Shown here: positions 4,595-49,004 of the stretch, in pieces | How the letters are laid out: every line of letters starts with the position of its first letter | Position numbering within the stretch: the stretch's first letter is position 1 | Assembly: GCA_002101225.1 (NCBI GenBank) | Contig: LWTN01000238.1 | Location: 1-52,214, forward strand | Source: Cycloclasticus sp. symbiont of Poecilosclerida sp. M | Lineage (GTDB): Bacteria > Pseudomonadota > Gammaproteobacteria > Methylococcales > Cycloclasticaceae | DNA length: 52,214 nt | Direction: 5' to 3' | Notes under the pieces: model-generated | Databases searched by the model: none | What the model was told of the DNA's origin: nothing | The model's input: the letters and a program-made list of their open reading frames with translations, nothing else | Program-made: the position numbers and the translations under genes

Positions 4595-5095
4595 GTGATT
4601 GATGAAGAAGGTTATCGGGCTAACGTCGGCATAATTTTATGCAATCAGCATAGTAAGTTGTTTTGGGCGCGGCGAACAAACTCAAAAGGTTGGCAATTCC
4701 CTCAAGGTGGTATGAAAGAGGGTGAGACTCCTGAACAGGCTATGTATCGCGAGCTACATGAAGAGGTGGGTTTAAAAAAACAACACGTAGAAATATTGGG
4801 TAGGACAGGAGACTGGGGTTATTACGATTTGCCTGAACAATTTTTACGCCGGAATAGTTTGCCGCTTTGTATAGGGCAAAAGCAAATTTGGTTTTTATTG
4901 CGCTTAGTTGGCGAAGAGTCTGAGATTGATTTTACTTTGACTGACAAGCCAGAGTTTGACCGTTGGAGGTGGGTGGACTATTGGGAGCCAGCTTTTGACG
5001 TGGTTTATTTCAAAAGAAATATCTATTTGAGCACATTGACGGAAATGTGGACTTTATTATTTCCTGGTATAACGCCAAAGCTTCCAAGAGATTAG
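4595..5095 (+). CDS. rppH: RNA pyrophosphohydrolase (Nudix)
   Basis: Removes pyrophosphate from the 5' end of mRNAs and so opens them to RNase E decay. The 166-residue protein begins at a GTG codon; the ATG seven bases upstream runs into a stop after four codons, and the family N-terminus IDxxGYRxNVGI starts exactly here. The Nudix box spans about residues 38-60 (GG...E...REL.EEVGL). CIGQKQIWF and the FDRWRWVDYW segment are further RppH signatures. The stop overlaps that of argA by 3 bases on the opposite strand, so the two transcripts are convergent with no room for a separate terminator. Confidence 0.95.
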   Translation: MIDEEGYRANVGIILCNQHSKLFWARRTNSKGWQFPQGGMKEGETPEQAMYRELHEEVGLKKQHVEILGRTGDWGYYDLPEQFLRRNSLPLCIGQKQIWFLLRLVGEESEIDFTLTDKPEFDRWRWVDYWEPAFDVVYFKRNIYLSTLTEMWTLLFPGITPKLPRD

Positions 5096-6663
5096 CCGAG
5101 TCTTTTAATCATGACGCTAGAGCGTCTTGAGTGGTTGTAGTTTTTGAGTTTCTCTGCGGGCAAATCAGACAATGATCCAGTCGTAAACCCACGCTCGAGG
5201 AACCAGTGGCTACTTTGTGTGGTTAGTACAAAAAGCTGGTTGAGATGAAGATCAAGGGCGGTTTGTTGAAGCATTGTGAGTAGGTGTTCTCCCCTCTCTC
5301 CTGTGCGATAGTCGGGGTGTACAGCAACACAAGCTAGTTCGGCCATAGCGCTGTCGGGATACTGATAGAGTGCTGCGCAGGTTGTTATCAGTCCGTCCTG
5401 CTCGATAATGTGAAACTTTTCAATATCGCGTTCAACGTCGTCCGCTGAACGTTCCGTGAGTAACCCCTTCTCAATCAAAGGTTTAATAAGTTTCAGGATG
5501 CCCGGTACATCGCTCGCGATAGCAGCACGAACCTCTTCAAATGGGCGTGAGCTGATAAGCGTTCCAGCGCCGTGTCGAGTAAACAATTCTAGTTGTATGC
5601 CGCCATTGATGCGTCGATCAATTAGGTGTACGCGTTTTACACCTTGCTGGCTAGCAAAGACGGCTTCCCTAAGGTGGAGTAACGTGTCGTCAAGCGGATT
5701 AACAGGCGCTGTTTTTTGTTCAAGCGCTGCTAAATGCTCAACGGCTTCTTGTGTGGTCAATTGCGTAATCAGTTTATTTTTTTCTGTAAGTAGTTCGGCG
5801 CGTTCGGTAAGCAAAATCAGCTTATCAGCACGCAGACTAACCGCAATTGCGGTGGCTACTTCCTCGCAGCGTAGATTAAAAGTATCACCCGAGGGTGAAT
5901 AGCCAATAGGAGAAACCAGCACTATATCGCCCGTGTTTAGTTTGGCGTTTATGCTCTCGGAGTTCACGCGTCTAACTTCTCCGGTAAATTGGTAATTTAC
6001 GCCATTAATAATGCCAAGAGGTTTGGCTGTTATCCAGTTGCCCGATGCAATCTGAATGTATGCATCTGATAAGGTTGAATTGGTTAAGGTCGAAGAAAAT
6101 TGGGCCTCAATTTTAGATCGAACAGCCCCCACAGATTCTTCGACAAGTTTTAATGTGCTTTTTGTCGTTACGCGTAAGTGATTGAAAACCAAACTCTCTT
6201 TTTGGCTAGCTTTTAGGCGTTGCTCAAGCTGTGAGCGAATGCCGTGTACGAGAATTAACCGAATGCCAAGACTGCTAAGCAGTGCAAAGTCTTGCACCAT
6301 TTCTAAGAAACGAATATCGTCAACGGCTTCACCATTAAAGCTGATGACAAAAGTTTTTCCACGATGTGTTTGTATATAGGGTGCTGTACTGCGAAACCAA
6401 CTGACGAACTGTTGAGGCTTTGAGTGGCTTTGCTTATCAGTTTGTATGGATAGGTTATCTTGGAGATGCCCTATGTTAAGACCTTTATCTTTTGCAGCGA
6501 GTAATATTTTGTTAAGAGCGTGAGAGGGAATCAATCCCCCGGTGCCGCCTTTATCTTTCGGGTAAGTCCAGCGATAGATAGTTGCAGGATTTTTACCAAT
6601 AGCCTTAGCTAAAGGCTTGATGCCTCCAAAGATCTCGATAATAGATTTCGCGTCGCGCAACAT
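5092..6663 (-). CDS. argA: N-acetylglutamate synthase with an N-terminal helix-turn-helix domain
   Basis: Catalyses acetyl-CoA + glutamate to N-acetylglutamate, the first and normally arginine-inhibited step of arginine synthesis. From about residue 82 the 523-residue protein matches complete ArgA: an amino-acid-kinase-like domain starting near THRGKTFVI, then a GNAT acetyltransferase domain (AVHPDYR, HWFLERGF). About 80 extra residues precede this. They read as a compact Cro/CI-like helix-turn-helix (IFGGIKPLAKAIGKNPATIYRW) with a Gly-rich wing and a third helix, similar to the short YdaS-type or 'carph-isopro' domains of proteobacteria. The ArgA of E. coli (about 443 aa) lacks this part. 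No ATG suits a separate ArgA start: the next Met is near residue 122, inside the kinase-like domain. There is no clear ribosome site before the ATG at 6663. A palindrome and promoter-like boxes lie directly upstream (see 6672-6722). Fusion and enzyme identity are clear; a regulatory role for the HTH is inference. Confidence 0.93.
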   Translation of the reverse strand: MLRDAKSIIEIFGGIKPLAKAIGKNPATIYRWTYPKDKGGTGGLIPSHALNKILLAAKDKGLNIGHLQDNLSIQTDKQSHSKPQQFVSWFRSTAPYIQTHRGKTFVISFNGEAVDDIRFLEMVQDFALLSSLGIRLILVHGIRSQLEQRLKASQKESLVFNHLRVTTKSTLKLVEESVGAVRSKIEAQFSSTLTNSTLSDAYIQIASGNWITAKPLGIINGVNYQFTGEVRRVNSESINAKLNTGDIVLVSPIGYSPSGDTFNLRCEEVATAIAVSLRADKLILLTERAELLTEKNKLITQLTTQEAVEHLAALEQKTAPVNPLDDTLLHLREAVFASQQGVKRVHLIDRRINGGIQLELFTRHGAGTLISSRPFEEVRAAIASDVPGILKLIKPLIEKGLLTERSADDVERDIEKFHIIEQDGLITTCAALYQYPDSAMAELACVAVHPDYRTGERGEHLLTMLQQTALDLHLNQLFVLTTQSSHWFLERGFTTGSLSDLPAEKLKNYNHSRRSSVMIKRLG

Positions 6664-6671
6664 GAGTTGAT

Positions 6672-6722
6672 ATCATAATTAATTTTTGCATAAAACGCAA
6701 TTAATTAAATATTAATTGCGTT
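6672..6722 (-). promoter_or_regulatory. Palindrome and predicted promoter upstream of argA
   Basis: AACGCAATTAAT (6694-6705) and ATTAATTGCGTT (6711-6722) are perfect 12-base inverted arms around a 5-base AT spacer. Read on the minus strand, TTGCGT (6695-6700) and TATGAT (6672-6677) make a -35/-10 pair with an ideal 17-base spacer, so the -35 box lies inside the arm nearest the gene. The -10 box ends 8 bases before the argA ATG, so a transcript would be nearly leaderless, which fits the missing ribosome site. A repressor bound to the palindrome would block this promoter. The stem is AT-rich with no long T tract after it, so a terminator for argE is less likely. Confidence 0.6.
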
Positions 6723-6733
6723 AATTTGTTTTT

Positions 6734-7897
6734 TTAACGACCTAAACAAATATTTTTAATGATTTTTTGCAAAAAACTAGAATATGGTTGTATTTGAGCT
6801 GAAGAGATAAACTCGTTCGCTTGGTGCGCTTGATCTATACTGCCAGGTCCGATGACAATAGTTTCAATACCTAAGTTATTTAAGTAAGGCGCCTCTGTTC
6901 CAAAGGCGACGGCTTCAGAAGGCTTGTTTATGAGTTGTTCGATTGTTCTTGTCAGTTTAGCATTTACGGCTGTTTCGAAAGGAGGAACGCCGCAAAATAT
7001 AGGTTTGTAGGCTAACTTGAGCTTGCTTTCTTCTGGTAAAACGTTGGCTAAGCGCTTTTGTAAATCCGCACGTAGGTCATTAATATTCATGCCAGGTAGC
7101 GGGCGAATATCTATTTGTGTTTCACAATGTGAGCAAATACGGTTGGGGTTATCACCGCCATGAATAGACCCAATGTTCATCGTGGGCGAGGCAACGTCAA
7201 AAACCGGGTTTTGATGTTTGGTTTGCAGCTCATCTCGCCAACGTAATAATTCGTTAATGACCTTGTGCATGCCTTCAGTTGCGCTAGCGCCAAGATTCGG
7301 GTTGCTCGAGTGCCCAGCGTGACCTGTGACGGTTAGAGACTCCATCATCACGCCTTTGTGCATACGTATAGGTGTTAAGTTGGTAGGCTCGCCAATGATG
7401 GCGTATTTAGCGTGTTGGAGTTGTTTTTTTTGTAAGGCTTGTGCGCCAGTCATAGCGCTTTCTTCGTCCGCTGTTGCTAAAATAGTGAGAGGCCTTTTAA
7501 AATCAGCCTGTTTAAATTTACAGGCGGCGTCTATAGCAAGTGCGAAGAAAGACTTCATGTCAGTGCTGCCGAGGCCGAAAAACTTATTATCTTTCTCGAC
7601 CAGCTTAAAAGGGTCGTGCTGCCATTGTTGCTGATCAAAAGGAACAGTGTCCGTATGCCCCGACAGTATTAAGCCTTCAGCACCAGGGTGAACGGGCCCA
7701 ATCGTAGCAATTAGGTTGGCCTTTCTAGGATCGACTAACGGCTGTACTTCTACTGAAAAGCCAATGTTTTCCAGCCAGTCGGTCAATAAATGAATAATGG
7801 GTAGGTTGCTTTGATCGTATCGTGGGTTTGTGCTGCTAACTGATGGCGTGCCAATTATGGCACGCATCATTTCAAGGGTTGTTAGCTGCTTGGCCAA
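6734..7897 (-). CDS. argE: Acetylornithine deacetylase
   Basis: M20-family zinc hydrolase that releases ornithine and acetate from N-acetylornithine. The 387-residue protein aligns along its full length with E. coli-type ArgE. Signatures are SGHTDTVPF (first metal ligands), GSTDMKSFFA (bridging Asp), ATADEESAMTGA (catalytic Glu pair) and GPGSIDQAHQANE near the C-terminus (metal-binding His). With argA, argD and argF it gives the linear acetylated route to ornithine. No argJ is visible in the window, consistent with a need for both ArgA and ArgE. It starts one base after ilvD ends. Confidence 0.95.
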   Translation of the reverse strand: MAKQLTTLEMMRAIIGTPSVSSTNPRYDQSNLPIIHLLTDWLENIGFSVEVQPLVDPRKANLIATIGPVHPGAEGLILSGHTDTVPFDQQQWQHDPFKLVEKDNKFFGLGSTDMKSFFALAIDAACKFKQADFKRPLTILATADEESAMTGAQALQKKQLQHAKYAIIGEPTNLTPIRMHKGVMMESLTVTGHAGHSSNPNLGASATEGMHKVINELLRWRDELQTKHQNPVFDVASPTMNIGSIHGGDNPNRICSHCETQIDIRPLPGMNINDLRADLQKRLANVLPEESKLKLAYKPIFCGVPPFETAVNAKLTRTIEQLINKPSEAVAFGTEAPYLNNLGIETIVIGPGSIDQAHQANEFISSAQIQPYSSFLQKIIKNICLGR

Positions 7898-7898
7898 T

Positions 7899-9596
7899 TT
7901 ATGCTAGATATTTGTCGGTCACGGCACCCTCAGAAGCGGAACAAACGAGCTTTGCGTATTTTGCCAACACGCCTTGAGTGTAGCGTGGTTTCGGTTGAAC
8001 CCAGCCATCAAGTCGTTGCTGAATAACAGCGTCATCTAAATGTAGGTTAAGTTGCCTATTTTGGCTGTCAATTGTGATGACATCGCCATCTTGGATAATG
8101 GCGATGGGACCACCTTGATTGGCTTCAGGCGTTATGTGCCCAACAACAAAACCGTGGGTTCCACCCGAAAAGCGACCGTCTGTAATAAGAGCCACTTCAT
8201 CACCGAGGCCTTTGCCCATAATGGCTGAAGTAGGTGCAAGCATTTCGCGCATACCTGGACCACCAGTCGGGCCCTCGTAACGGATGACGATAACATCGCC
8301 TTTTTGTACGTTGCCATCGAGGATGCTTTTCATTGAATCTTCTTCGGAATCAAAAACTCTAGCAGGTCCTGTAAACCCAAGGCCCTCTTTACCTGTAATT
8401 TTTGCAACACCGCCTTTGGGTGCAAGGTTGCCGTGTAACACGACTAAATGGCTATCCTTTTTAATGGCATTGTCTAAGGAACGAATTATGGTTTGACCTT
8501 CTGGGTAAGGCGCAATATTAGCTAAATTTTCGGCTAAAGTTTTACCCGTGACGGTCATGCAGTCGCCGTGTAGAAGGCCACGTTCCAATAGAATTTTCAT
8601 CAAAGGTTGAATGCCTCCAATATCAATCAAATCTCCCATTGAATGTTTGCCGCTCGGTTTAAGATCGGCCACCATCGGCACGCGCTTACCGATTTCGGTA
8701 AAGTCGTTTAGTTGTAAATTCACACCTGCGCTATACGCCATCGCAAGTAAATGCAGTACGGCATTGGTAGAGCCCCCAAGTGCAATGACAACAGTGATAG
8801 CGTTTTCAAATGCATTGCGGGTCATGATGTCGCGCGGTGTTATGCCGAGCTCTAACAAATTAAGAACGGCAGCGCCTGCGGCTTTGCAATCCTGTTTTTT
8901 ATCCTCCGATATAGCGGCTTGGGCGGAACTGTTGGGTAAACTCATGCCCATCGCTTCAATAGCAGAGGCCATAGTATTAGCGGTATACATGCCGCCACAA
9001 GAACCCGGTCCTGGAATGGCTTTGGACTCAATCGCGTGGAGCTCCTCGTCATCGATGAGGTCGTTTGCACGAGCGCCGACGGCTTCAAAAACAGAAACAA
9101 TGTCTAATTTACGCTGTTTATGGCAGCCAGAATGAATCGTTCCTCCATAGACAAAAACAGCAGGGCGGTTTAAGCGAGCCAATGCAATTAAGCAGCCGGG
9201 CATATTTTTATCACAGCCACCAATTGCAACAACGCCATCGTAGCCTTGGCAGCCCACAACCGTTTCAATCGAATCGGCAATAACTTCACGTGAAACGAGC
9301 GAGTATTTCATGCCTTCTGTACCCATTGAAATACCATCGGAGATGCTAATGGTATTAAAGACGATGCTCTTACCGCCAGCAAGGTCGACGCCGCGTGCCG
9401 CCTCATCAGCCAAGCCATTAATATGCATATTGCAAGGCGTGACCATCGCCCACGTAGAGGCGATTCCAATTTGTGGTTTGGCAAAATCTTTATCCGTAAA
9501 GCCGACTGCGTACAGCATGGCACGACTTGGTGCACGTTCCATTCCGTCAACTACTTGCGAGGAAAATTCTCGAGTATCTGTTTTTTTAGTAGACAT
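7899..9596 (-). CDS. ilvD: Dihydroxyacid dehydratase
   Basis: Dehydrates 2,3-dihydroxy-isovalerate and 2,3-dihydroxy-3-methylvalerate in valine, leucine and isoleucine synthesis. The product has 565 residues and full family length. Iron-sulfur and active-site signatures are visible: TPCNMH around residue 55, [10 protein letters not shown] near residue 127 and [14 protein letters not shown] near residue 200. The C-terminal part contains [13 protein letters not shown]. It lies within the arginine run, between the SH3 protein gene and argE, spaced 18 and 1 bases from its neighbours, so it is probably cotranscribed with arg genes. Confidence 0.97.
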
Positions 9597-22350: not shown

Positions 22351-22361
22351 GGAAAAGCAAA

Positions 22362-22391
22362 TAAAAAAGGGTGGCTAAGCCACCCTTTTTT
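22362..22391 (-). terminator. Terminator or attenuator between pilA and the GT-C/TPR gene
   Basis: GGGTGGC (22369-22375) and GCCACCC (22379-22385) pair perfectly across 3 bases, extended by A and T runs on either side to about 13 bp. It lies after the pilA stop and ahead of the next gene's start. Most transcripts should end here, giving much pilin mRNA and little readthrough. Confidence 0.92.
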
Positions 22392-22411
22392 ATAATACGA
22401 CTAAAGCTTAC

Positions 22412-44229: not shown

Positions 44230-44266
44230 GTATAAAAGGCGAAACACTGTGTTTCGCCTTTTATAC
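44230..44266. terminator. Perfect 17-bp hairpin after tRNA-Thr
   Basis: The arms 44230-44246 and 44250-44266 are complete inverted copies (GGCGAAACA core) with a 3-base loop. A and T runs lie inside the arms, so it can act as a terminator both ways, between tRNA-Thr and leuC. Confidence 0.88.
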
Positions 44267-48926: not shown

Positions 48927-48951
48927 GTTTGACAAATAAGAATAGATACAT

Positions 48952-48985
48952 AAAAAAAGGCTTACATAATGTAAGCCTTTTTTTA
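48952..48985. terminator. Bidirectional terminator between the 170-aa gene and leuB
   Basis: GGCTTAC (48959-48965) and GTAAGCC (48971-48977) form the core stem, extended by an A run on the left and a T run on the right. It serves the two convergent genes. Confidence 0.9.
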
Positions 48986-49004
48986 TGTTCTAAACAGTTA
49001 AGTG

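Follow-up and report, generated by a model that had tools for sequence, protein, structure and literature searches.

N-acetylglutamate synthase (NAGS) is a classic feedback-controlled enzyme. The NAGS of the type treated here is a D3 hexamer built from its AAK domains, in which bound arginine shifts an N-terminal helix and alters the shape of the ring (PMC4490483). Metabolic enzymes that act on transcription include BirA, a biosynthetic enzyme doubling as a transcriptional repressor (PMC6978683), and the nearly single-target trigger enzyme PutA, whose binding is confined to its own control region (PMC8249747). Among DNA-binding proteins, ArgR is a winged HTH protein whose targets are paired 18-bp ARG boxes (PMC6245113), and PY54 Cro has a single palindrome of 16 bp as its binding site (PMC4488713). 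Our search of the literature returned no NAGS described as a DNA-binding regulator, and nothing on carph-isopro, HTH-NAGS or arginine regulation in Cycloclasticus.

Cycloclasticus is an oil-degrading marine bacterium. The window, which means here the whole stretch of 52,214 nucleotides that was analysed, comes from a sponge-associated member of this genus and contains an argA gene for a NAGS preceded by an HTH domain, with a palindrome in front of the gene. The features are listed in Table 1.

Table 1. Features of the argE-argA region, in coordinates of the window
Feature	Position	Strand	Basis or remark
argA, 523-aa HTH-ArgA	5092..6663	-	HTH aa 1-62, flexible linker about 66-84, AAK 103-348, GNAT 377-522
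Cro-like / carph-isopro HTH coding part (aa 1-62)	6478..6663	-	NCBIfam NF046037; predicted fold
-10 box TATGAT	6672..6677	-	17-nt spacer; ends 8 nt before ATG
Putative core operator TTGCGTTTTATGCAA (TTGC-N7-GCAA)	6686..6700	-	17-species footprinting; left half is the -35 box
-35 box TTGCGT	6695..6700	-	Conservation; within the palindrome
12-bp-arm palindrome (auxiliary half-site, AT-rich filler and left half of the core operator)	6694..6722	.	Repeat search, shuffles, cross-species arm comparison
Auxiliary half-site AACGCAA	6716..6722	-	About two helical turns (about 19 bp) upstream of the core's left half-site
argE	6734..7897	-	Co-directional with argA, upstream neighbour

Results

HTH-ArgA and its distribution

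Two NAGS equivalog models scored the argA product above cut-off (564.8 bits for NF003641, and 509.9 bits), and 70-85 extra residues precede the NAGS part. When the HTH domain was scanned alone, the carph-isopro model NF046037 matched it with 40.2 bits (cut-off 38) and matched all 16 genus members as well. The AlphaFold model of the domain has four helices (pLDDT 88.5), and among solved structures N15, Xfaso 1 and P22 Cro come closest to it, at Foldseek probabilities of 0.98-1.0. The family match is modest, as the whole protein scores 33.5 bits with NF046037, below the cut-off, and the Foldseek E-values are 0.1-0.3. The region is also weakly similar to YdaS, and it did not reach the gathering cut-off of P22_Cro (PF14549; 20.2 vs 30.2 bits), so that this likeness is one of fold only. 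The NAGS models, the match of the HTH alone and the predicted fold agree with the earlier note, which took the gene for an HTH-ArgA fusion.

In all 16 full-length genes of the genus, HTH and ArgA share one uninterrupted open frame. The AAK and GNAT residues are conserved in these 16 genomes, and across the 16 species the recognition-helix region PATxYRWTY is nearly invariant and the linker is not. In the full-length model, whose confidence is moderate (pLDDT 74), the linker is of low confidence, with residues 68-98 disordered, and the HTH is probably tethered flexibly to ArgA.

The fusion was present in every Cycloclasticus genome with a full argA (16/16) and also in G003, where it lies at a contig end; ArgA was not seen in one incomplete genome (G011). 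These 17 are the only fusions among 251 genomes of the order, and neither that sample nor a class sample of 369 genomes held one outside Cycloclasticus. Each carrier genome has a single copy of the HTH, in every case as part of ArgA, and no stand-alone paralogue was detected in the searched genomes, so a paralogue was dismissed as an alternative binder. A search for E. coli-type ArgR (PF01316) gave nothing in the 41 genomes of the genus and order sample but detected the family in 9 of 14 control genomes.

Cycloclasticus species share the gene order ilvD-argE-argA with a convergent rppH (5092-9596 in the window). The ilvD stop nearly abuts the listed TTG start of argE, so argE may ride on the ilvD transcript and argA may have its own promoter.

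Promoter and predicted leaderless start

The -35 box TTGCGT, the 17-bp spacing, the -10 box TATGAT and the 8 bases to the ATG described earlier were recovered at the same coordinates. TTGCGT departs too much from TTGACA for a consensus promoter scan to call the argA promoter, and the assignment is based on conservation. The -10 box ends 5-8 nt before the ATG in 15 of 17 genomes, and no Shine-Dalgarno-like motif was found upstream of argA in any of the 17; the predicted transcription start is therefore the ATG itself or its immediate neighbourhood. The earlier note had considered a leaderless mRNA possible for this gene, and by these predictions the argA promoter is probably leaderless genus-wide. 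This predicted leaderless arrangement is conserved, and it is independent of the question of the operator.

The palindrome between argE and argA

The gap of 70 bp from the argE stop (6734, - strand) to the ATG of HTH-argA (6663-6661, - strand) holds a perfect inverted repeat at 6694-6722, AACGCAATTAAT-N5-ATTAATTGCGTT, with 12-bp arms and a 5-nt loop. In 70 bp of equal composition (19% GC) the chance of such a repeat is about 0.005, and Markov-shuffled windows (n = 8) gave no inverted repeat of comparable kind. The perfect palindrome reported to cover the -35 box is thus real and unlikely to have arisen by chance. The window has five such repeats in total, the other four being stem-loops at 22361, 26071, 44230 and 48948, three of which end in T runs. 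Those at 22361-22393, 44230-44266 and 48948-48988 are perfect 16-20 bp stem-loops with T runs closing both strands, and are probably bidirectional terminators. According to the earlier note, recurrence as a repeat or terminator would speak against an operator; no second copy of the palindrome was found genome-wide, even allowing 3 mismatches, and because of this uniqueness it is not a dispersed repeat.

The palindrome might instead work at the RNA level, its hairpin terminating or attenuating transcription between argE and argA, given its folding energy of -12 kcal/mol (z -2.95) and the terminator-like score of the + strand in a terminator scan. However, the coding (-) strand was not called a terminator, the stem has just 3 G-C pairs, and the palindrome precedes the -10 box, so it lies outside any argA transcript starting there. 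Hairpins of relatives vary in place and pairing, whereas the DNA half-sites are conserved. Because the hairpin is not kept in relatives, this explanation was discarded as very unlikely.

The length of the arms differs among the 17 species: 12 bp in two (the window and L008), 7-8 bp in six more and 3-5 bp in the rest. The two 12-bp pairs lie near an equivalent centre and differ in their letters; the argE-argA gap of L008 (G015) has a separate palindrome at the equivalent place, based on TTGCAA and not on AACGCAA/TTGCGTT. In L014, one of the eight species with arms of at least 7 bp, the centre is two bases off and GCAA is missing. Arm lengths summed over species amounted to 104, compared with a shuffle maximum of 83. 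Since the letters change while the arms persist in eight species, the symmetry is partly kept and the sequence is not. From this comparison, the long 12-bp-arm palindrome is mostly species-specific, and its AT-only inner part is probably incidental.

A conserved core element over the -35 box

The conserved unit is a 15-bp element shifted toward the gene relative to the long palindrome. TTGC-N7/8-GCAW was found at the same place in the upstream regions of all 17 HTH-argA genes, in 15 of them as strict TTGC-N7-GCAA; the remaining two are an N8 variant (L005) and a GCAT variant (L016). Alternative half-site spacings upstream of HTH-argA reached a count of at most 1, and shuffled sets gave a mean of 0.3 and a maximum of 4. 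In an unbiased scan of all 4-mer dyads, in which one member of each close species pair was taken out to leave 14, TTGC-N7-GCAA ranked first (12/14; shuffled maxima 3-7); such species counts come from related genomes and are not fully independent. The right half of the core, GCAA, sits in the promoter spacer, which promoter conservation alone would not preserve.

AACGCAA pairs with TTGCGTT of the core, and the two therefore make up the outer arms of the 12-bp palindrome. A GCAA starting 16-20 nt upstream of the core TTGC was observed in 9 of 17 species (best-window count 9, shuffle maximum 5).

Two close species, L013 and L015, have a different layout. About 60 bp upstream of argA, tandem half-sites TTGCGTTTTTTGCGTTT lie over the likely -35 box, and the palindrome has moved downstream of the likely -10 box. 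The palindrome is therefore not merely a promoter box there, and repression would be expected from either position. Most Cycloclasticus (e.g. L003 and L005) have, some 120 bp ahead of argA and still inside argE at its 3′ end, a TTGCAATTTTTTGCAA-like palindrome within C-N-F-L-Q codons; it is likely coding-driven, though operator-like with N8 spacing.

Association with the fusion

The core was not found upstream of HTH-less argA (0/67 and 0/14, 81 genes examined), although the high GC content of many of these relatives makes an occurrence of the motif less probable there. Phylogenetic footprinting had been proposed with the expectation that the arms co-vary and persist only with the fusion; the core follows this expectation (17/17 vs 0/81 in HTH-less genes), whereas the 12-bp arms, present in 2/17, do not. 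Exact TTGCRTTTTNYGCAA gave 13 matches over 18 genomes, 10 at argA and 3 within long open frames, one of these in a citrate-synthase-like gene. When one mismatch was allowed in two genomes, all 17 further matches were inside open frames, with no second intergenic copy of the operator in either; on this close look at two genomes, a regulon was rejected. As far as searched, the core appears to be essentially the sole intergenic copy per genome, and weak second targets matching a degenerate 17-bp pattern are possible. Present in all 17 HTH-argA regions, absent from HTH-less argA and single among intergenic sites, the site thus accompanies the HTH and singles out essentially one promoter.

Another arginine or nitrogen regulator might own this operator, with the HTH of ArgA serving otherwise: TTGC/GCAA-type palindromes are bound by many regulators, and the tie between HTH and site is one of sequence association, so that another single-target DNA-binding protein could use it. 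This is unlikely, since in the searches made each genome has one intergenic site, the site co-occurs strictly with the fusion, and classical ArgR is absent. An ARG box was rejected because PF01316 is absent and both spacing and sequence differ.

Discussion

In our view, HTH-ArgA is probably enzyme and repressor in one, and the site is the operator through which it would regulate itself, acting on the argA promoter as a repressing trigger enzyme with a single target; we give this reading a probability of roughly three in four. It is supported by the operator, which keeps a fixed place, goes exclusively with the fusion and, within the searches made, has one intergenic copy per genome, and by the intact conserved HTH. 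By the same sequence evidence, the protein would have the attributes of a trigger enzyme: intact catalytic domains, a DNA-binding domain in the same protein and a specific operator at its gene. The earlier note had assigned the autoregulatory role to the palindrome. An operator-like site over the -35 box, restricted to the fusion, was retained, and the role passes from the palindrome to the conserved unit TTGCGTTTTATGCAA; binding of the HTH to it, the repressive effect and any dependence on arginine or another ligand are what we infer.

In the proposed mechanism, the Cro-like HTH at the N-terminus of ArgA would bind TTGC-N7-GCAA with one HTH per half-site, and the extra half-site about two helical turns upstream would be engaged as well. 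Because the left half of the operator overlaps the -35 box, bound HTH-ArgA is predicted to keep RNA polymerase off, and the level of ArgA would limit argA transcription. Three half-sites in one region would fit an oligomer that carries several HTHs. The HTH is attached just before the AAK-associated N-terminal helix that arginine moves, so arginine could change how HTH pairs are presented to the palindrome, and its binding to AAK could make repression arginine-dependent. We tentatively suggest, with somewhat less than even confidence, that ArgR-type control has been replaced here, the first arginine enzyme being its own arginine-responsive repressor in which arginine bound by the AAK hexamer changes the pose of the tethered Cro-like HTHs. 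If true, a single protein would combine feedback inhibition with transcriptional repression.

Bound HTH-ArgA might also activate, as a CII-like protein beside the -35 box, or mainly loop or wrap DNA as a hexamer. Lambda CII has TTGC elements at the -35 box, which the TTGC here recalls, and the third half-site fits a multi-headed oligomer. However, the half-sites are inverted and one of them is the -35 box itself, the site is downstream of the -10 box in L013 and L015, and the nearest folds are Cro repressors, so we regard activation or looping as very unlikely.

A self-repressing HTH-ArgA would close a feedback circuit within one protein, in a lineage that yielded no E. coli-type ArgR, and would give a candidate function for a carph-isopro domain. 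The genus-wide fusion with its dedicated operator offers a testable case in which a biosynthetic enzyme has acquired a phage-type HTH.

Several known systems resemble this one in part. PutA is catabolic and has another DNA-binding fold, unlike HTH-ArgA, which joins a biosynthetic enzyme to a Cro-like HTH. The two would be alike as metabolic enzymes with a DNA-binding domain and a nearly single target, their own control region (PMC8249747). BirA differs in that its target is a separate bio operon and that enzyme and HTH are unrelated. Its N-terminal HTH and palindromic operator recall HTH-ArgA. As proposed for HTH-ArgA, it is a biosynthetic enzyme and a repressor (PMC6978683). E. coli ArgR with its ARG boxes would be similar as a hexameric regulator at a palindromic arginine-gene operator, but it is a winged HTH protein using paired 18-bp boxes (PMC6245113), whereas here TTGC-N7-GCAA is found with a single target and PF01316 is absent. 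The Cro proteins of N15, PY54 and P22 belong to the same HTH fold class, and PY54 Cro also uses a single palindrome (PMC4488713); they are, in contrast, stand-alone phage proteins with another operator and weak sequence similarity to the HTH of ArgA.
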